A DNA stretch of 64,000 nt from NCBI GenBank assembly GCA_022239325.1, contig JAKOGP010000002.1, positions 1 to 64,000 of the forward strand, given 5' to 3'. A model generated the notes under the pieces. That model was not told the DNA's origin and searched no databases. It saw only the letters and a program-made list of their open reading frames with translations. Below are positions 38,371 to 46,864 of this stretch, piece after piece. Each line of letters starts with the position of its first letter. The first letter of the stretch is position 1. The translations under genes were made by a program, and so were the position numbers. Origin of the DNA: Flavobacteriaceae bacterium LSUCC0859. GTDB taxonomy: Bacteria > Bacteroidota > Bacteroidia > Flavobacteriales > Flavobacteriaceae.

Positions 38371-40055
<1,685 letters not shown>

Positions 40056-40064
40056 AATTACAAT

Positions 40065-40081
40065 TTTATATATTAAATAAT
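40065..40081. repeat. 17-bp AT repeat, copy 1, upstream of the recombinase
   Basis: TTTATATATTAAATAAT, identical to 40251-40267; 14 of these bases also occur inverted at 38454-38467. In such AT-rich DNA chance similarity is possible. Copy 1 lies upstream of the recombinase start and copy 2 directly abuts the end of the endonuclease gene. Confidence 0.45.
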
Positions 40082-40211
40082 GTCTCCCATAAATTTAAAC
40101 ATTTCTCTCACATTATCTGTTTTTTTATATACAACTATATTAAAACCTCATTAACCCCTATTAAAACTAATCTTTCATATTATATCCCAATTAATCTTAA
40201 CTATAAGACAT

Positions 40212-40242
40212 AAAAAAAGTGATAATATTTCTATCATCACTT
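40212..40242 (-). terminator. Hairpin terminator after the endonuclease gene; left copy of a 31-bp direct repeat
   Basis: On the minus strand a stem of ten positions with one mismatch and a 6-base loop (AAGTGATGAT pairing with ATTATCACTT) is followed by seven Ts. It shares 29 of 31 bases with 41851-41881. It lies 27 bases past the endonuclease stop. Confidence 0.7.
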
Positions 40243-40250
40243 ATTCTATC

Positions 40251-40267
40251 TTTATATATTAAATAAT
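40251..40267. repeat. 17-bp AT repeat, copy 2, at the endonuclease 3' end
   Basis: Identical to 40065-40081 (TTTATATATTAAATAAT). Together with the flanking 31-bp repeats it may mark rearrangement around the restriction-modification cassette. Confidence 0.4.
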
Positions 40268-40268
40268 A

Positions 40269-41009
40269 CTACAATTCTAACTTCTCTTTATATAATCCAT
40301 ATAAACTTTCCTTTTTAATCCTAAATCCACTTCCATGATCATGAGGTTTTCCATAATTTTTACCAGATTTATAAACACCTATTCTTATATCAAATTGTAT
40401 AAATCCATTTTCAAGAATTTTAAGAAATTCATTAAAATCAATATCTAAAAAAACAGTTCCAGAGTTATAATGATAATGATAAATATTATCTATGCTTTTT
40501 TGTTCTGCTGATACAACAAATAATTTATTCAGTTTATTTAAACCTTTTTCTAAATCTTCAAAATTCCAATAAACTTCATCATAAATTTCCCCTCCATTTT
40601 TAACATGAAGATAAACCCTATTATTAGAATAGTCTACATGCATTTTCATAAAGTACTTACCATAAACCTCACTCCATTTATTTCCAAAAACACTAGCATA
40701 AAGTTTTTTTAAATCTGGAAAACTAGAATCTCTTACCTCTCCATATTTCTCTTTTAAAATTGCATTTGCTCCTTTTGGATATGATGGTGATTTAGAGAAT
40801 AAAGTTATATAACTTGATGTTAATTCTCTTTGAGTTTTAATCTCAAAACCTTCAAAATCTGGATCTTTGAGATTATTTTCCTCTACCCCTAAATAATCTT
40901 CAAAAGTATTTCCAATACCACCATCTTTATTTTTTACTCTGTTTGATTTAACAAATCCTAATTTTTTAATTCTATTAAATTCCTTTACTATTTTTTCTAC
41001 TTTATTCAT
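40269..41009 (-). CDS. Type II restriction endonuclease, MvaI/BcnI family
   Basis: A 246-residue protein similar to the MvaI/BcnI family, which cut CCWGG (MvaI) or CCSGG (BcnI) as monomers. The characteristic opening KNKDGGIGNTFEDYLG, the ENN that follows, and the D...FEIKTQR core (Asp-Glu-x-Lys) are visible around residues 25-65. Unlike its island neighbours it contains normal numbers of Thr, Pro, His, Ala and Gln, so it has not undergone C depletion. It is divergent from the methyltransferase gene, 36 bases apart, as usual for type II pairs. The target CCNGG is inferred from family only. Confidence 0.85.
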   Translation of the reverse strand: MNKVEKIVKEFNRIKKLGFVKSNRVKNKDGGIGNTFEDYLGVEENNLKDPDFEGFEIKTQRELTSSYITLFSKSPSYPKGANAILKEKYGEVRDSSFPDLKKLYASVFGNKWSEVYGKYFMKMHVDYSNNRVYLHVKNGGEIYDEVYWNFEDLEKGLNKLNKLFVVSAEQKSIDNIYHYHYNSGTVFLDIDFNEFLKILENGFIQFDIRIGVYKSGKNYGKPHDHGSGFRIKKESLYGLYKEKLEL

Positions 41010-41020
41010 TACTTAGTTCA

Positions 41021-41028
41021 TATCTTTG
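41021..41028 (+). promoter_or_regulatory. -7 box of the methyltransferase in the R-M divergent region
   Basis: TATCTTTG is a perfect TAnnTTTG, 18 bases before the GTG start. A minus-strand TACTTTAG-like box for the endonuclease at 41032-41039 lies between it and the start, so the two divergent promoters overlap; such overlap could bias timing of modification and restriction. Confidence 0.5.
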
Positions 41029-41045
41029 AAACTAAAGTACAAATT

Positions 41046-41792
41046 GTGATAGAATTAGATAAAGTTTATTTTGAAAATTGTCTTGAAACATTAAGTAGAA
41101 TGGATAATGATAGTGTGGATTGTGTTATTACATCACCTCCATACAATATGAATTTGAGAATTAGAAATGGAAAGTACTGCTCAAGACAAATTGTTAAGGA
41201 ATTAAGTACTAAATATTCAACTTTTGATGATAATTTACCTATTGAAGAGTATAATGAATTTCATAGTAATGTTTTAAGTGAATTATTAAGAGTATCAAAA
41301 GTTGTATTTTATAATATCCAAATTGTTACAGGTTCTAAAAGATCAATCTTTAAAATGATTGGTGATTTTAATGAACAGTTAAAAGATATAATAGTTTGGG
41401 ATAAAGGAGTTGCACAACCTGCAATGCAAAAGCAAGTATTAAATAGAAGAACTGAATTGATTTTAGTTTTTGAAACTGATTACCCAATTAGCAGACAATA
41501 TAAATATGCAAATTTTGAAAGAGGTACATTGAATGATATTTGGGAAATAAAAAGAGGTAAAAAAGTAAGTAAAAATCATGGTGCAACATTTCCTGAAGAA
41601 TTAATCAGTAAAATACTTGAAAACTTCACAAAAGAAGGTGAGATAGTATATGATCCATTTATGGGAACAGGAACAACTGCTATAGTATGTAAAAAGATGA
41701 ATAGAAGATTTATTGGAAGTGAATTAGGAAAAGAATATTATGACTTTATATTGGAGAGATTAAGTGAATTAAATAATGAAATTCAATTTTAA
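41046..41792 (+). CDS. DNA methyltransferase, probably N4-cytosine (beta-class), of the MvaI/BcnI-type R-M system
   Basis: A 248-residue SAM-dependent DNA methyltransferase starting at GTG 41046. The catalytic SPPY motif (ITSPPYNMNL, about residue 32) comes before the SAM-binding motif YDPFMGTGTTAIVC (about 203-216), the order of beta-class enzymes. An SPPY motif together with an MvaI/BcnI-like partner points to N4-methylcytosine at CCNGG, because the MvaI and BcnI methyltransferases are of that kind; N6-adenine activity cannot be fully excluded. Composition is AT-rich but balanced, unlike the C-free genes around it. Its protective partner is the divergent endonuclease gene. Confidence 0.88.
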   Translation: MIELDKVYFENCLETLSRMDNDSVDCVITSPPYNMNLRIRNGKYCSRQIVKELSTKYSTFDDNLPIEEYNEFHSNVLSELLRVSKVVFYNIQIVTGSKRSIFKMIGDFNEQLKDIIVWDKGVAQPAMQKQVLNRRTELILVFETDYPISRQYKYANFERGTLNDIWEIKRGKKVSKNHGATFPEELISKILENFTKEGEIVYDPFMGTGTTAIVCKKMNRRFIGSELGKEYYDFILERLSELNNEIQF

Positions 41793-41850
41793 CTATTTTT
41801 CATTCTTTTTAATCTAAATCCTTAATAAAAAATTTTCAATTTAATTATAA

Positions 41851-41881
41851 AAAAAAAGTGACAATATCTCTATCATCACTT
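41851..41881 (-). terminator. Hairpin terminator after the excisionase-like gene; right copy of the 31-bp direct repeat
   Basis: Differs from 40212-40242 at two positions, both in the same orientation, and again forms a stem-loop with a seven-T tail on the minus strand. It ends the minus-strand operon just past the excisionase-like gene (stop at 41911). The two copies bracket the restriction-modification cassette. Confidence 0.7.
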
Positions 41882-41910
41882 CTTCATTTTTACTATGAGA
41901 ACTTATTACA

Positions 41911-42099
41911 TTAACTAATTTTTCTATTATTCATATAATCATTAACATCATTAATATCAAATCTAACATTTCTTCCAAATTTCACATATTTCAAACCATC
42001 ATCATACATCATCTTTTCAACCTTTCCAATACTCACATCTAAATACTCACACAACCCTTTTTTATTTACAAATCTTCTATTTACTACTTCACTATCCAT
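41911..42099 (-). CDS. Excisionase-like helix-turn-helix protein
   Basis: A 62-residue DNA-binding protein of the HTH_17/excisionase type: VNKKGLCEYLDVSIGKVEKMM forms the winged helix, followed by GLKYVKFGRNVRFDINDVNDYM, with the conserved wing and the usual DVxxYM ending. In such elements this protein usually directs excision or regulates the integrase. It contains no Pro, Thr, His or Ala. It lies upstream of the terminator at 41851-41881, with the unknown gene 17 bases further upstream in the same operon. Confidence 0.85.
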   Translation of the reverse strand: MDSEVVNRRFVNKKGLCEYLDVSIGKVEKMMYDDGLKYVKFGRNVRFDINDVNDYMNNRKIS

Positions 42100-42116
42100 C
42101 TTAAAATTTATATTAA

Positions 42117-42383
42117 TTAAACATTTATATTTTTTCCACCTTTTCCTAATAAATCAATCCACTTCATCATCATTTCCACTTCCTCTTTTTCCTTACCCTT
42201 ATTTACAACACCAATTTTTAAACCATAATTTATCCATCTACTTACATCATCTAAACTATAAATTTTTTTAAAATCATTTCTCATCACTCTCTCTCTCAAA
42301 CTATCATCACTCTCCCATTTTATAACATCATTTTCTACTCCAATTTCTTCAAAATCACTCCCAACTATTCTTAAATTTCTCAT
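42117..42383 (-). CDS. Unknown small protein of the C-free element
   Basis: I chose the ATG at 42381-42383 (88 residues, beginning MRNLRIVGSDFEEIG); a GTG 15 codons upstream would overlap an upstream repeat cluster. The sequence is acidic and helical with no Ala, Thr, Pro, His, Gln or Cys at all. No domain is recognised. It is placed directly before the excisionase-like gene, so it may help control excision or replication; this is only position-based inference. Confidence 0.6.
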   Translation of the reverse strand: MRNLRIVGSDFEEIGVENDVIKWESDDSLRERVMRNDFKKIYSLDDVSRWINYGLKIGVVNKGKEKEEVEMMMKWIDLLGKGGKNINV

Positions 42384-42854
42384 ATTTAATTCTTTTTTAT
42401 TATAAATATCTTCAAATTCTGAATACACCTATTTATACCTATTTTTCCCTATTTTTTTATTTAATCAGTTTTATTTTACAATCCAAATTCATATTTTTAT
42501 TTTGCTAAAACCACTCTTTATATAATATAATACCACTCCCCCTTATTTCCAACTATTACCCCATAAAACCCTATTTTTTAGTATACTCCATAAAAATTTA
42601 TTCATAACTTTATGCTGATACACCATTCTTAAAAAAATCCCCCTACACCCCACACACACTTATATACCTAATATAATTCTATACACACTTACTTATTTAT
42701 TCTATACACTATCACCCTATATACCAAAAAATCTTCAGCAATATAAACACCAATATTTCCCACTTTTTACCAAAAAATACTTTTTAAGGGAATTTAACTA
42801 AATACTTTATAAATTTTTCTTTAAAACCATTACTCTATACATCACTATTATTTT
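42384..42854. other. Non-coding 470-bp region of the element (possible origin or control region)
   Basis: No convincing gene. It is nearly free of G on the + strand although it is non-coding. It holds a CCTATTT array (42428-42457, with a fourth copy at 42570-42579), G-run-rich minus-strand stretches around 42640-42660 (complement of ACCCC and CCCC), and a few residual G clusters near 42611-42618 and 42787-42789. It could hold the element's origin or promoter region; I see no decisive motif. Confidence 0.45.
42428..42457. repeat. Three direct CCTATTT repeats at 10-bp spacing
   Basis: CCTATTT starts at 42428, 42438 and 42448, exactly one helical turn apart, with a further copy at 42570. This is a plausible operator or origin array upstream of the unknown small gene. 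Confidence 0.6.
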
Positions 42855-43532
42855 CTACACACTCATATATAACTTCATCATATTATAAACACTACTCATA
42901 TACCACTCTCCCCCATATTTACTTTTAACACCATCTTCATTTAATCTATTACTGATTTTACTCCAACTATACCCTCTACTTCTTAATCCCTTTATTCTAC
43001 TTATCACTTTCATTTCTTCTTCATTTTTAACTAATCTACCATCTACATCATTATATCCATACATCAATCTCCCACTAACTAATCCTTTACTCTTCTTTTC
43101 CCTCTTAACATCTCTAATTCTCTCTCTAATATTCTCTACTTCAAACTCATTTATACTACTCATTATATTAACTATCAAACTCCCAATCTTATCTTCATTA
43201 TTCAAATTCTCCTTTATACTATAAAAACTTTTTCCATTTTTTTTCAATACATCTAACAATCCAATTACATCACTCATCCTTCTACCCAACCTACTCAAAC
43301 TATACACTACCACTCCATCAATATTATTATTCATCAAATAATCTAACATATCCTTATAACCATTTCTCTTATCTATACTCATACCACTTATTCCCCTATC
43401 CTCATAAACATCTAATAATTCATAATCCATATACTTACAATAATCTTTAATCTTACTACTCTGATTAATTAAACTGTATCCTTTAATCTGACTCTTACTA
43501 CTTACTCTAATATATCCTATAACCTTTTTCAT
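42855..43532 (-). CDS. Small serine recombinase (resolvase/invertase type)
   Basis: A 225-residue serine recombinase. The catalytic domain has GYIRVSSKSQ with the nucleophile S11, the SLINQS segment, EDRGISGMS, and YSLSRLGRRM with the arginine pair, followed by the long E helix (FEVENIRERIRD). A C-terminal HTH follows (SRGYSWSKISNRLNEDG). It contains no Ala, Thr, Pro or His; its only two Gln (CAG) are at positions conserved in the family. The P of the usual GYxRPG/PPYGY positions is replaced. It is preceded by a 28-bp promoter-like repeat (43543-43570) shared with the 522-residue gene. Role may be dimer resolution or inversion. Confidence 0.9.
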   Translation of the reverse strand: MKKVIGYIRVSSKSQIKGYSLINQSSKIKDYCKYMDYELLDVYEDRGISGMSIDKRNGYKDMLDYLMNNNIDGVVVYSLSRLGRRMSDVIGLLDVLKKNGKSFYSIKENLNNEDKIGSLIVNIMSSINEFEVENIRERIRDVKREKKSKGLVSGRLMYGYNDVDGRLVKNEEEMKVISRIKGLRSRGYSWSKISNRLNEDGVKSKYGGEWYMSSVYNMMKLYMSV

Positions 43533-43542
43533 ATCTATAATT

Positions 43543-43570
43543 TATAATATCATTACACTAAAAAAATATA
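43543..43570. repeat. 28-bp repeat upstream of the small recombinase (promoter/operator candidate)
   Basis: It matches 45865-45892 with one difference and shares 22 identical bases with 45921-45942. Core: ATCATTACACTAAAA followed by an AATATA-rich stretch. On the minus strand it sits just before the recombinase start, which suggests a promoter or operator common to both genes. Confidence 0.6.
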
Positions 43571-43572
43571 CA

Positions 43573-43797
43573 CTACTTTCTAAATTCATTTATAACATCA
43601 CTCCACTTATCTAAATCTCCTTTCATCATTACCTTCAAAACTATTTTACACAAATAATCATATATATCATCATCAAAAAATCCCTCCTCTCTAAAATCAT
43701 CAACAACCATTTCTAAATATCTTTCAACAATTTCTTTTTCACTTAACAATACATTTCCATCTAAATACTCAAACTTTTCTAAATCCATAACCATCAT
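43573..43797 (-). CDS. Unknown 74-residue protein
   Basis: A short acidic protein, MMVMDLEKFEYLDGNVLLSE at its start, with predicted helices and without Ala, Thr, Pro, His or Gln. I recognise no family. It lies between the small recombinase and the zinc-ribbon gene, all on the minus strand, and shares their C-free composition. The frame is intact in a DNA with many potential stops, which supports it being a real gene. Confidence 0.55.
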   Translation of the reverse strand: MMVMDLEKFEYLDGNVLLSEKEIVERYLEMVVDDFREEGFFDDDIYDYLCKIVLKVMMKGDLDKWSDVINEFRK

Positions 43798-43888
43798 TTC
43801 TATATTAATATTAAAATACTACTATAAAATTAATACCACTCCCTCATGCCTCCAACCATATAACTAACTCTTTATCAATTATTTAAAT

Positions 43889-43916
43889 AAAAAAAAGCAT
43901 AACTTTCATTATACTT
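43889..43916 (-). terminator. Weak hairpin terminator within the element
   Basis: On the minus strand AAGTATAA pairs with TTATGCTT (one mismatch) around a 6-base loop and is followed by a T-rich tail. It resembles the other element terminators in design but is weaker. It would end transcription of the zinc-ribbon gene. Confidence 0.4.
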
Positions 43917-43969
43917 TTCTAAATTAAATCCACAATTATTTTTATCTGATAATTACATATCTATTAATA

Positions 43970-44239
43970 TTAATTTCCTTTTTTCTTCTTCTCTACATAT
44001 TCTTTATTATAATCAACCCTATAATACTTACCTCTTTCACTCACTTCTCCATTTCTATAATCTCTTAAATATTTAGAAACACATTTTTTACATCTAAAAC
44101 TATAACCATCAATTCTATTACTTTTATCTTTTACAAAATCCTTAATATCTTTCCATTCATCACATATACTGCATTTCTTTTCTACTACATCACCCCTTTC
44201 ATTAAACTTCCTCTTATAATTTTTTTCTCTATTATCCAT
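43970..44239 (-). CDS. Small zinc-ribbon protein
   Basis: An 89-residue protein with two CxxC pairs, CSICDEWKDIKDFVKDKSNRIDGYS then RCKKCVSKYLRDY, a zinc-ribbon layout often found in short phage and plasmid proteins and at the N-terminus of some HNH-type endonucleases; the HNH residues themselves are absent. The C-terminus is a basic helical tail. It has no Ala, Thr, Pro, His or Gln. DNA or RNA binding is likely from the fold, but function is not known. Confidence 0.65.
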   Translation of the reverse strand: MDNREKNYKRKFNERGDVVEKKCSICDEWKDIKDFVKDKSNRIDGYSFRCKKCVSKYLRDYRNGEVSERGKYYRVDYNKEYVEKKKKGN

Positions 44240-44266
44240 AACCTTAATAATTTTACAAAATCTGTA

Positions 44267-45835
44267 CTATTTGCTTTTAAAACTAATACAACTATTCAAC
44301 CCTTCTAACTCACTATCAATTAAAATATTTACAATACCTAAATCACTCTTTTTAATTAACATCCCATCATATAAACTTATATAAAATATTTTTCTTTCAA
44401 TAAATTTCTTCCAAATACCTCTCATAATTAAAACCTCCATACTCATCAACACCCTACTCATATTTTTAAATCTCTCATATCCATAATAATTCTCCCCTCT
44501 TAATTTAAAATCAATATCACTATTTTTTATTTTCTCTATTACTTCATATCCCCCTTTACAAAAAATCTTCTCCATTATCTCATCATAACTAAACTGATTA
44601 TTCAAATACCTCTTTCTCATTCCATCTCCCCTTTCTCCATTAATCAAATACAAAATCAATCCCTTCATATATTTCCTATTTACCTCACCAATATTTTTAT
44701 CAATAACTCCTAATTCTATACCTAAATACTTATAAAAATCAATTCTTTCATTTCCCTCAAAACACATTTCATACTTATTCAAAAAATCACTTACATCAAT
44801 ATCACCAACAATTTTTTTTATATAATCATCAAATTTACTTTCCCCTTTTTTTACATTTTTAATACCCTTCAATAATCTGTAAAACAAACTCACATAACCA
44901 TTCACCATATCAACATCTACAACATTTTCACCATCTAATTTTATTACACTTCTAAATTCTTTTTCCTTATTAATTATAATATTTACATACCTGCCACTTT
45001 TATTATCTCTACCAAATCCATCAAAACTAAATCCTCCTCTTTTTAATTCATCTAATTCAATTTTTAATAAATCAAAACTCAATCTTCCATTAAACAAATA
45101 ATCACTTCTTCTTTTATCATCCCAACCCCTTTCAACTTTTTTTCTCTCTTTATTACTTATAAAATCCCAATCTCTTTTTTCCCAATCTAACTCAATTTTA
45201 CCATTCAATCTTCTCTTCAATAAAACACCAATACCATCACTATTACTTACAACATCAACATTTTTACAACTTTCAATTTCCCAATAAATAAATTCATCTC
45301 TATCATTACCAACCTTCAATTCTCCACTATATAATTTATCTAAAAATCTATTTAACCTACTATTCCTAATCCAAACAATCCTTCTTTCACATTTCTCATT
45401 AAAAAACCCATCATTCAACTCATACAACTCTTTTTTCTTCCCAAACTTTCCTTTTTCATATTTAATATTTATTATATCTAAATTCTTTAACTCAGCAATT
45501 ATTTCAATATATCTACTTCCCAAAATTCCACAACATACTTTACTACTCTCAACATAAACCCATCTATTATCTCTTCTTCTCTCAACCTCAATTCCTTTTT
45601 TGTATAATACAAACAAAAACCTACCTATTCTCTCAACTAAATCATACCCAAATATTTTCTCAATCTCTCTTTCATCCCAATAACTAAACTCATATCTGAT
45701 ATATTTTTCATCAATTACTATATTATTTAATCTACTTACCCACTTACCACTATCTTCATTAAAATATTTTTTAATATCCTTATTATAATCACCATAACTA
45801 TATTCTCTATTTTTACTATACCACTTATAACTCAT
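44267..45835 (-). CDS. Polymerase-like protein of the element (candidate replication protein)
   Basis: A 522-residue protein with zero Pro, Thr or His, one Ala and one Gln. I do not recognise a named family with certainty. Three segments in the C-terminal half recall family-A-polymerase-like mobile-element proteins: VVDVDMVNGYVSLFY (motif A-like, Asp-rich), RKYMKGLILYLINGERG (motif B-like, with Lys) and FYISLYDGMLIKKSD (motif C-like, YDG in place of HD). The N-terminal half includes a possible winged helix (SSKVCCGILGSRYIEIIAEL). It is the largest gene of the element and starts beside two copies of a repeat also found before the small recombinase. A replication or priming role is inference. 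Confidence 0.6.
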   Translation of the reverse strand: MSYKWYSKNREYSYGDYNKDIKKYFNEDSGKWVSRLNNIVIDEKYIRYEFSYWDEREIEKIFGYDLVERIGRFLFVLYKKGIEVERRRDNRWVYVESSKVCCGILGSRYIEIIAELKNLDIINIKYEKGKFGKKKELYELNDGFFNEKCERRIVWIRNSRLNRFLDKLYSGELKVGNDRDEFIYWEIESCKNVDVVSNSDGIGVLLKRRLNGKIELDWEKRDWDFISNKERKKVERGWDDKRRSDYLFNGRLSFDLLKIELDELKRGGFSFDGFGRDNKSGRYVNIIINKEKEFRSVIKLDGENVVDVDMVNGYVSLFYRLLKGIKNVKKGESKFDDYIKKIVGDIDVSDFLNKYEMCFEGNERIDFYKYLGIELGVIDKNIGEVNRKYMKGLILYLINGERGDGMRKRYLNNQFSYDEIMEKIFCKGGYEVIEKIKNSDIDFKLRGENYYGYERFKNMSRVLMSMEVLIMRGIWKKFIERKIFYISLYDGMLIKKSDLGIVNILIDSELEGLNSCISFKSK

Positions 45836-45864
45836 AACAATAACTTATCTATATATAATACCAA

Positions 45865-45892
45865 TATAATATCATTACACTAAAATAATATA
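45865..45892. repeat. 28-bp repeat upstream of the polymerase-like gene, copy 1
   Basis: One difference from 43543-43570. On the minus strand it lies about 30 bases before the start of the 522-residue gene. Copy 2 is exactly 50 bp further upstream. Confidence 0.6.
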
Positions 45893-45920
45893 TAAAAAAT
45901 ATAATTAATAAATTACTACA

Positions 45921-45942
45921 ATCATTACACTAAAAAAATATA
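45921..45942. repeat. 22-bp repeat upstream of the polymerase-like gene, copy 2
   Basis: Its 22 bases are identical to 43549-43570. Spaced 50 bp from the preceding copy, about five helical turns, which suits cooperative binding of a regulator. Confidence 0.55.
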
Positions 45943-46029
45943 TAACCATTAAAACTAATTATTCATCAAATAAAATAAAATCACACATAATTAATCAATA
46001 TAATTAATCCAAAAAATAATAAATATAAA

Positions 46030-46165
46030 CTACTGATAATCAGATATATACATTTTATTTCTATTATAATTTATCTTACTTCTCCCACAAATATTCCAAT
46101 TAACATCCAAAACTACATTAACAATAAATCTATTTTTATATATCAAATTACAACCCTTTACTACT
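46030..46165 (-). pseudogene. 3' fragment of the serine recombinase gene, separated by integration
   Basis: A minus-strand open frame of 43 codons past the core (beginning VKGCNLIYKNRF and ending MYISDYQ) with the same C-free composition as the element. It lacks a start of its own within the element; the ATG further upstream (46242) lies in chromosomal DNA beyond the core. At the CTACT core its codon phase equals that of the recombinase (core adenine is a third codon base in both), so joining the ends extends recombinase residue 538 by these 43 residues. In DNA of only A, G and T about 3 of 27 codons are stops, so a 43-codon run is unlikely by chance. Confidence 0.75.
46161..46165. repeat. 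Right attachment core (CTACT)
   Basis: Same five bases as 38441-38445. G becomes frequent again immediately to its right, and the tRNA-type terminator follows five bases later. There is no longer duplication of the tRNA 3' part here, as expected for a serine rather than tyrosine integrase. Confidence 0.6.
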
Positions 46166-46169
46166 TCAT

Positions 46170-46202
46170 AAAAGGCTTTCAGATAACTGAAAGCCTTTTT
46201 TA
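46170..46202 (+). terminator. Strong terminator, probably the original terminator of tRNA-fMet
   Basis: A perfect 13-bp stem (AAAAGGCTTTCAG, 46170-46182, pairing with 46187-46199), a 4-base loop and a T-rich tail. It has no gene of its own ending nearby in the element. In the reconstructed empty site it would start only a few bases after the tRNA, so integration has moved it 7.7 kb away. Confidence 0.85.
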
Positions 46203-46240: not shown

Positions 46241-46864
46241 ATGACTGAAGAAGCACGTAAAAATCACTGGGAACATATTTACAAAACGAAAGCCTTAACA
46301 GAAGTAAGCTGGTATGAGCCCATTCCTAAAACTTCTTTAGAGACATTTAAATCTTTCCAGATCCCTAAAACCGCAAAAATTATAGATGTAGGTGGCGGCG
46401 ATAGCTTTTTGGCAGACTCCCTTTTAAAACAAGGCTACCAAAATATCACAGTTTTAGATATTTCTCAGGCAGCCATTCTCAGAGCACAACAAAGATTAGG
46501 GCCACTTAGCCAAAAAATTAATTGGATAGTGTCAGATATTACCGCTTTTAAACCCAAAGAAACCTACGATTTTTGGCATGATAGAGCGGCCTTCCATTTT
46601 CTGAATACAAAAACAGATATTGAAAAATACATAAAAACTGCACACCATAGCTTAAGTGAGCAAGGACTCCTTTCTATAGGAACCTTTTCAGAAAACGGCC
46701 CAAAAAAATGCAGTGGTATAAACATAACTCCATATTCAGAAATAAGTTTAGTGGAACAATTCGCTCCACTATTTAGCAAAATGAGTTGCAGCACCTATAC
46801 ACATATTACACCATTTAATACCAAGCAAGAATTCACCTTTTGCAATTTTAAAAAAAATAAATAA
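46241..46864 (+). CDS. Class I SAM-dependent methyltransferase
   Basis: A 207-residue Rossmann-fold methyltransferase; motif I is IIDVGGGDSFLADSLL (about 46-61) and the acidic post-I loop is VLDISQAAI. It begins MTEEARKNHWEHIY, a start typical of small-molecule methyltransferases in this clade. The ATG lies just outside the mobile element. Substrate unknown; no operon partner is apparent. Confidence 0.85.
   Translation: MTEEARKNHWEHIYKTKALTEVSWYEPIPKTSLETFKSFQIPKTAKIIDVGGGDSFLADSLLKQGYQNITVLDISQAAILRAQQRLGPLSQKINWIVSDITAFKPKETYDFWHDRAAFHFLNTKTDIEKYIKTAHHSLSEQGLLSIGTFSENGPKKCSGINITPYSEISLVEQFAPLFSKMSCSTYTHITPFNTKQEFTFCNFKKNK

Follow-up and report, generated by a model that had tools for sequence, protein, structure and literature searches.

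Does integration itself alter the way a serine integrase acts? The question becomes testable with a 7.7-kb element (38442-46162) that is inserted in the 3' end of a tRNA-fMet gene in the window, the whole stretch of 64,000 nucleotides from Flavobacteriaceae bacterium LSUCC0859 that was analysed here. Serine integrases are widely used as genome-engineering tools. Enzymes of this class integrate by recombination between attP and attB and need a directionality factor for the reverse reaction, and in the well-studied phage systems with large serine integrases attP lies outside the integrase reading frame. The gene for the large serine recombinase (LSR) of the present element crosses its left junction, and a reading made from the sequence alone, without database searches (the sequence-only reading), had proposed that integration cuts this gene in two and strands its 3' part at the far end of the element. 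That integration separates the 3' end of the gene and leaves it in phase at the far end is borne out in the window and, in other Bacteroidota, in four Pontibacter elements and in five distinct Winogradskyella/Nonlabens tails. We consider it likely that the LSR gene contains its own attP, and that integration splits off a tail available only in the circle while a tRNA-derived end takes its place.

The element, its attachment sites and its recombinase gene

The target is a tRNA-Met(CAT) gene (38371..38444, plus strand), identified by ARAGORN and by target-like sequences of the same genus, and its 3' end forms the B half of attL. The attR sequence reads TTTACTACTTCAT, and the same-genus sequence G009 continues after its tRNA with CGCTACTACTTTACAAAAGGC (a continuation also given as CGCTACTACTTTACAAAAGGCTTTCAG; G008 is similar). 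Thus TACT (38442..38445 at attL and 46159..46162 at attR) is more likely to be the shared core than CTACT (38441-38445 and 46161-46165), the choice of the sequence-only reading, which this same-genus sequence and the symmetry of attP put one codon off. With CTACT as the core attP is less symmetric, and the extra ACT is accounted for by the same-genus sequence. G009 carries another, tyrosine-integrase-like element at the same tRNA and the contig of G008 ends soon after the tRNA, so that both sites show continuity of the target and are not pristine empty sites. A terminator-like hairpin at 46170..46199 (plus strand) is probably that of tRNA-fMet, given that the hairpin directly follows the tRNA in both G008 and G009, and the insertion probably put 7.7 kb between the two.

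The attP built on the TACT core has its symmetry peak exactly at the TA within the core, with 17 of the 26 arm positions symmetric (P = 0.0016 with the centre fixed, and 0.06 if any centre is allowed). It is a site of about 52 bp consisting of two half-sites about the central TA, and it lies entirely within the 3' part of the LSR gene. Its build is that of the LSR class, namely an attP of about 50 bp with imperfect inverted half-sites and a 2-bp crossover, the bases of which are themselves putative. Four copies of the half-site motif TTTATATATYAAAT are present in the 64 kb, against 0.28 expected. One copy is placed in each attP arm, TTTATATATTAAAT in the P arm (38454..38467, minus strand) and TTTATATATCAAAT in the P' arm (46135..46148, plus strand), the latter within the tail frame, where both the motif count and the symmetry point to it. 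The motif search found the other two just upstream of the LSR gene (40065..40078 and 40251..40264, both plus strand); these extra copies may serve as operators by which the LSR gene regulates itself, or may be relics of att sites.

The integrated LSR gene occupies 38403-40055 on the minus strand and encodes 550 amino acids. Pfam recognizes a Resolvase domain (residues 5-149), a Recombinase domain (170-260) and a zinc ribbon (275-351), in this order and above cut-off, and all of them belong to the body of the enzyme, residues 1-538, encoded by 38442..40055 (minus strand). The last 12 codons (AGTGLEPVTFGL) and the stop are lent by antisense tRNA-fMet (38403..38441, minus strand), as both the open reading frame and the joining of the element ends in silico confirm for the earlier claim. 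The stranded 3' end is an in-phase open frame of 42 codons (KGCNLIYKNR...MYISDYQ) plus TAG at 46030..46158 on the minus strand, the TAG itself lying at 46030-46032, and tails of the same design are conserved elsewhere. When the element ends are joined in silico they give one unbroken LSR frame, of 581 residues with the CTACT core and of 580 residues with TACT; the shift is 3 nt, and therefore the frame is the same under either core.

The sequence-only reading was thus correct that recombinase and tail share one phase and form a continuous frame, and correct on the TAG and on the composition shared with the element, while its lengths of 581 residues and 43 codons each shrink by one with the TACT core. 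Its statement that the tail frame has no start holds inside the element; in the host flank the frame stays open to an ATG at 46242. The resulting 70-aa ORF across attR crosses the tRNA terminator and was for this reason rejected as a host gene. The phrase "cut in two" captured the loss of the 3' part and overstated the division, as the gene is split at residue 538 and every recognized domain (residues 5-351) is kept in the large part.

C makes up 1.5% of the frame of the window tail, which is the C-poor coding-strand composition common to the element. A frame open for at least 44 codons has a probability of 0.004-0.009 in Markov shuffles, and 1.8% of the anchors in the non-coding parts of the element are open for at least 44 codons. 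The codon score of the tail lies at the low end of the range for real gene pieces, so that the window by itself would not decide. A search of 201 genomes of the family gave no credible match to the window tail, the best match to a long ORF not being a recombinase. The genome and viral collections held no near homologue of the window LSR, and only distant ones were found, in plasmids, phages and relatives. An AlphaFold model of the LSR has a mean pLDDT of 57 and is unreliable past residue 459.

Parallels in other elements

A distant LSR family was sampled as 53 loci, in which 45 LSR genes adjoin a tRNA or tmRNA gene (45 rather than 48, since three neighbouring tRNAs had been counted twice). All but one of these genes (44/45) are open through the 3' end of the adjoining RNA gene, and homologues that end ahead of residue 538, which would have spoken against a split gene, are thus not the pattern of this family. 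The RNA targets comprise Arg, Leu, Met, Tyr, Pro, Glu and Ser tRNAs as well as tmRNA, the latter in five cases. Three of the LSRs (L068, L087 and L093) end at tRNA-Met with exactly AGTGLEPVTFGL, as in the window, and an alignment of 18 sequences has the same valine at the core throughout (Val538 in the window LSR). These counts and the invariant valine reflect conservation by descent and not 45 independent events. As far as the sampled genes tell, the core lies inside the LSR gene throughout the family and the genes do not stop ahead of it. More widely in the order, LSRs at glmS take their end from the antisense strand of that gene (YSTVTDFAKFLG and stop). An alignment across LSR families was too diverse to be used in scanning. 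As a separate observation, the last codons ahead of the core form a hairpin in L042-L087 (e.g. AACGGGAACTTTC...GAAAATTCCCGTTT), judged by eye and unscored; it is probably the tRNA terminator, in which case the stretch would be coding and terminator at once.

The far ends are best seen in Pontibacter. Empty tRNA-fMet sites are present in sister genomes of the four elements (G472, G473, G509 and G483), and the missing host flank was taken from these sites. BLAST with the flanks placed the far ends 53-62 kb away, and all four carry the same in-phase tail from the core on, on the same strand, with the sequence VDQLAQQSNFLEEDIAALEAFYHQTGYTSSSQPKSSSKSKKK and stop or a close variant (in short form VDQLAQQSNFLEEDI...KSKKK and stop). 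Directly after the tail follow a helix-turn-helix gene (Pfam HTH_36) and then an ATPase-like gene. Between G472 and G483 the tail shows 11.5 synonymous differences over 27 sites and 10.5 non-synonymous differences over 99 (dS 0.62, dN 0.12, P = 0.0002); constraint is also found past the att part (P = 0.0017), and both other frames of the same DNA contain stops. By these substitution counts the Pontibacter tail is constrained as a protein. Without a start codon, a tail can become part of the enzyme only when the element is circular, and a tail under protein selection, here in one group, therefore probably has a role in the free circle.

In Winogradskyella and Nonlabens we found five distinct in-phase tails at far ends, VTSKGQSSNFLKEDIDLIISKSI and stop together with four variants, and every Winogradskyella genome in which the LSR C-terminus has a strong match (5/5) also carries a far-end tail. 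The far end of Nonlabens G021 was located by the tail motif and not by direct repeats or Nonlabens host flanks. These tails share the peptide QSSNFLxxDI (also as QSNFLxxDI), which is as far from the core as it is in Pontibacter. Their substitutions show no codon-position bias. Since the first ~12 tail codons double as attP DNA, part of the conservation may be for DNA, and the case for protein selection is thus mainly that of Pontibacter.

No tail motif joined to a whole LSR was found in the fetched loci, by a scan that is blind to a gene crossing the ends of a circular contig. Such a gene exists in the draft genome G091: contig C23 (locus L016, 9310 bp) is a circular contig of 9,171 bp with a 139-bp end overlap, which holds an uncut LSR of 605 aa together with a small serine recombinase and other genes. 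Judging from the assembly, this LSR would correspond to the whole form predicted for the free circle. Two minor observations concern tails by themselves. Far-end tails at L248 and L249 (genomes G662 and G707) have no matching recombinase C-terminus in the same genome and are probable footprints of decayed elements, and the presence of two tails each in G680 and G695 suggests stacked elements.

What integration would do to the enzyme

At the level of sequence, the anatomy, the phase, the continuity of the target within the genus, the symmetry of attP and the same arrangement in other elements are established; the gene is intact only while attP is, and an integrated copy has host-derived residues in place of the tail. 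In the model that we derive from them, the whole gene in the circle would encode a body of 538 residues, including the catalytic and DNA-binding domains, followed by the element-encoded tail of 42 residues, the predicted circle junction ...GACTTAGTAAAGGG... being read in one frame. The circle junction that the sequence-only reading predicts lies within one codon of the one indicated by the attP symmetry, and this check did not refute it. Crossover at the 3' end of tRNA-fMet would break the gene at codon 538; antisense tRNA would supply the body at attL with 12 residues and a stop, the tail would be stranded at attR without a start codon, and excision would restore the whole gene. The tail would work in the circle only, most likely for integration or for holding the enzyme in an integrating state, and the tRNA-derived end would be an inert replacement, so that integration itself would alter the form of the enzyme. 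Since all recognized domains are kept in the body, the integrated form is expected to be altered rather than dead. If it were dead, exit of the element would need another enzyme, for example the second, small serine recombinase. More tentatively, the tail may be needed for integration or bias the enzyme toward it, and its loss at attL may leave an excision-ready or resting enzyme. Put in full, it is conceivable, although we would not yet count on it, that widespread bacterial serine integrases report their own integration state in their C-terminus, with directionality arising through a change of the protein and not only through a separate directionality factor.

A plainer account is that the gene merely ends beside a compact attP, with an enzyme that is complete without the tail, two end forms that work alike, a tail that is a tolerated by-product and a stop supplied by whatever follows the core. 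Every recognized domain lies well ahead of the core, the integrated element still has to excise with the tRNA-derived end, and one group of tails shows no codon-position bias; a trivial explanation of this kind was offered for dsiB by McMurdie et al. (PMC3146451). It has difficulty with the Pontibacter tail, which is constrained as a protein past the att part as well, with the openness of nearly all family genes through the core although a stop just ahead of it would be cost-free, and with the peptide motif common to the Pontibacter and Winogradskyella/Nonlabens tails, and we regard it as rather unlikely. For the window alone it might also be supposed that the tail frame is a chance opening beside attR and that the protein naturally stops at the core or close to it. 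A probability of 0.004-0.018 for such an opening is not negligible, and the lack of a homologue and the low codon score of the window tail fit this supposition. However, phase and architecture match elements with conserved tails, both att half-sites lie within the frame, and its coding strand has the G content of a gene (21%, compared with 12% in the spacer next to it), which together make chance an improbable source of the frame.

One could further suppose that the tail is an alternative C-terminus reached by invertible recombination, in which the far-end piece would be half of a shufflon-like switch and not the original 3' end. This idea draws on G010 and G005, two genomes of the same genus, in which a glmS-targeting LSR (L010:16843-19098 and L012:7493-9763) lies beside an inverted copy of its own 3' end (263-272 nt, 97-99%); this copy abuts the LSR start codon and continues past the core into another tail, ~100 residues long. 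Inversion between the two cores would swap the tails, and the arrangement has the look of an invertible tail switch. A fainter parallel in the window is an inverted repeat of 25 nt (88%) located between attL and the LSR start. No second tail reading from this repeat was found, though; the far-end piece of the window lies exactly at attR, beside host DNA that continues the target site, and in Pontibacter and Winogradskyella the two parts simply lie at the two ends of the element, so that we hold inversion to be very improbable as the source of the window tail. A gene divided by integration at its own attP remains the reading that we prefer.

Known systems and the rest of the element

The sequence-only reading had likened the locus to archaeal SSV viruses, and this comparison holds as an analogy only. 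In the archaeal "suicidal" integrases (SSV, pTN3, pT26-2; PMC8371274) attP likewise lies in the integrase gene, which is split in phase with its parts at the two ends of the element. Those enzymes, however, are tyrosine recombinases (the Phage_integr_3 group) in which the catalytic domain is separated and the gene inactivated, whereas the window has a serine recombinase that keeps its catalytic domain in the large part and loses the terminal tail alone. A review of 2021 described self-disrupting recombinases, tyrosine enzymes, as exclusively archaeal (PMC8371274); a design so regarded appears here in bacterial serine integrases of many genera and with many RNA-gene targets.

A closer precedent among serine recombinases is the LSR DsiB of the Dehalococcoides ssrA islands (PMC3146451). 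The 3' end of its gene overlaps attL in every case, and the authors of that study remarked that the enzyme may be fully functional on the circle only. There, as in the window, the 3' end of the LSR lies over attL at a small-RNA gene, the stop comes from the neighbour and the module includes a small serine recombinase (DsiA). Compared by description, DsiB differs in belonging to another phylum and having ssrA as target, with no mapped in-phase far-end tail or selection described. Integration-dependent immunity of mycobacteriophages (PMC9262239) also places attP in a gene, and integration at a tRNA swaps the C-terminus of the protein and changes its stability. In that case a repressor is cut by means of a tyrosine integrase and the tail is an ssrA-like degradation tag, while in the window the recombinase itself is cut and the tail ends with MYISDYQ rather than with an ssrA-like LAA. 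In domain order, and in combining a small with a large serine recombinase, the element resembles SCCmec with CcrA/CcrB and the phage large serine integrases, although the match to the NCBIfam CcrB equivalog model reaches 47 bits against a cut-off of 900. What appears to be new is the mapped in-phase far-end tail in several groups of elements, the protein constraint in one of them and the breadth of targets; our comparison covered open papers, and an earlier description is possible.

For annotation, an LSR whose C-terminus has the form ...G[FIL]EP... and is read from antisense tRNA is probably truncated, and its true end is to be sought at the other end of the element. Databases will hold the tRNA-derived, wrong C-terminus, and any assays on enzymes cloned from integrated copies may thus have used the wrong form.

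The second, small serine recombinase (225 aa; 42855..43532, minus strand) was recognized by Pfam and has a weak match to the CcrB model, below cut-off. A 522-aa protein encoded at 44267-45835 matches neither Pfam nor NCBIfam, and in the circle its gene would be the first long one downstream of the tail. Over 38500-40055 and 42000-46160 the GC skew is about -0.95 on the plus strand, and the coding strand of the genes contains less than 1% C. The sole exception to this asymmetry is a restriction-modification cassette at 40.3-41.8 kb, in which genes for an MvaI/BcnI-like restriction endonuclease and an N4/N6 DNA methylase are convergent (40269-41792). Similar 46-nt hairpin repeats flank the cassette (40212-40257 and 41851-41896), and its composition, unlike that of the rest, indicates that it was probably acquired by the element.
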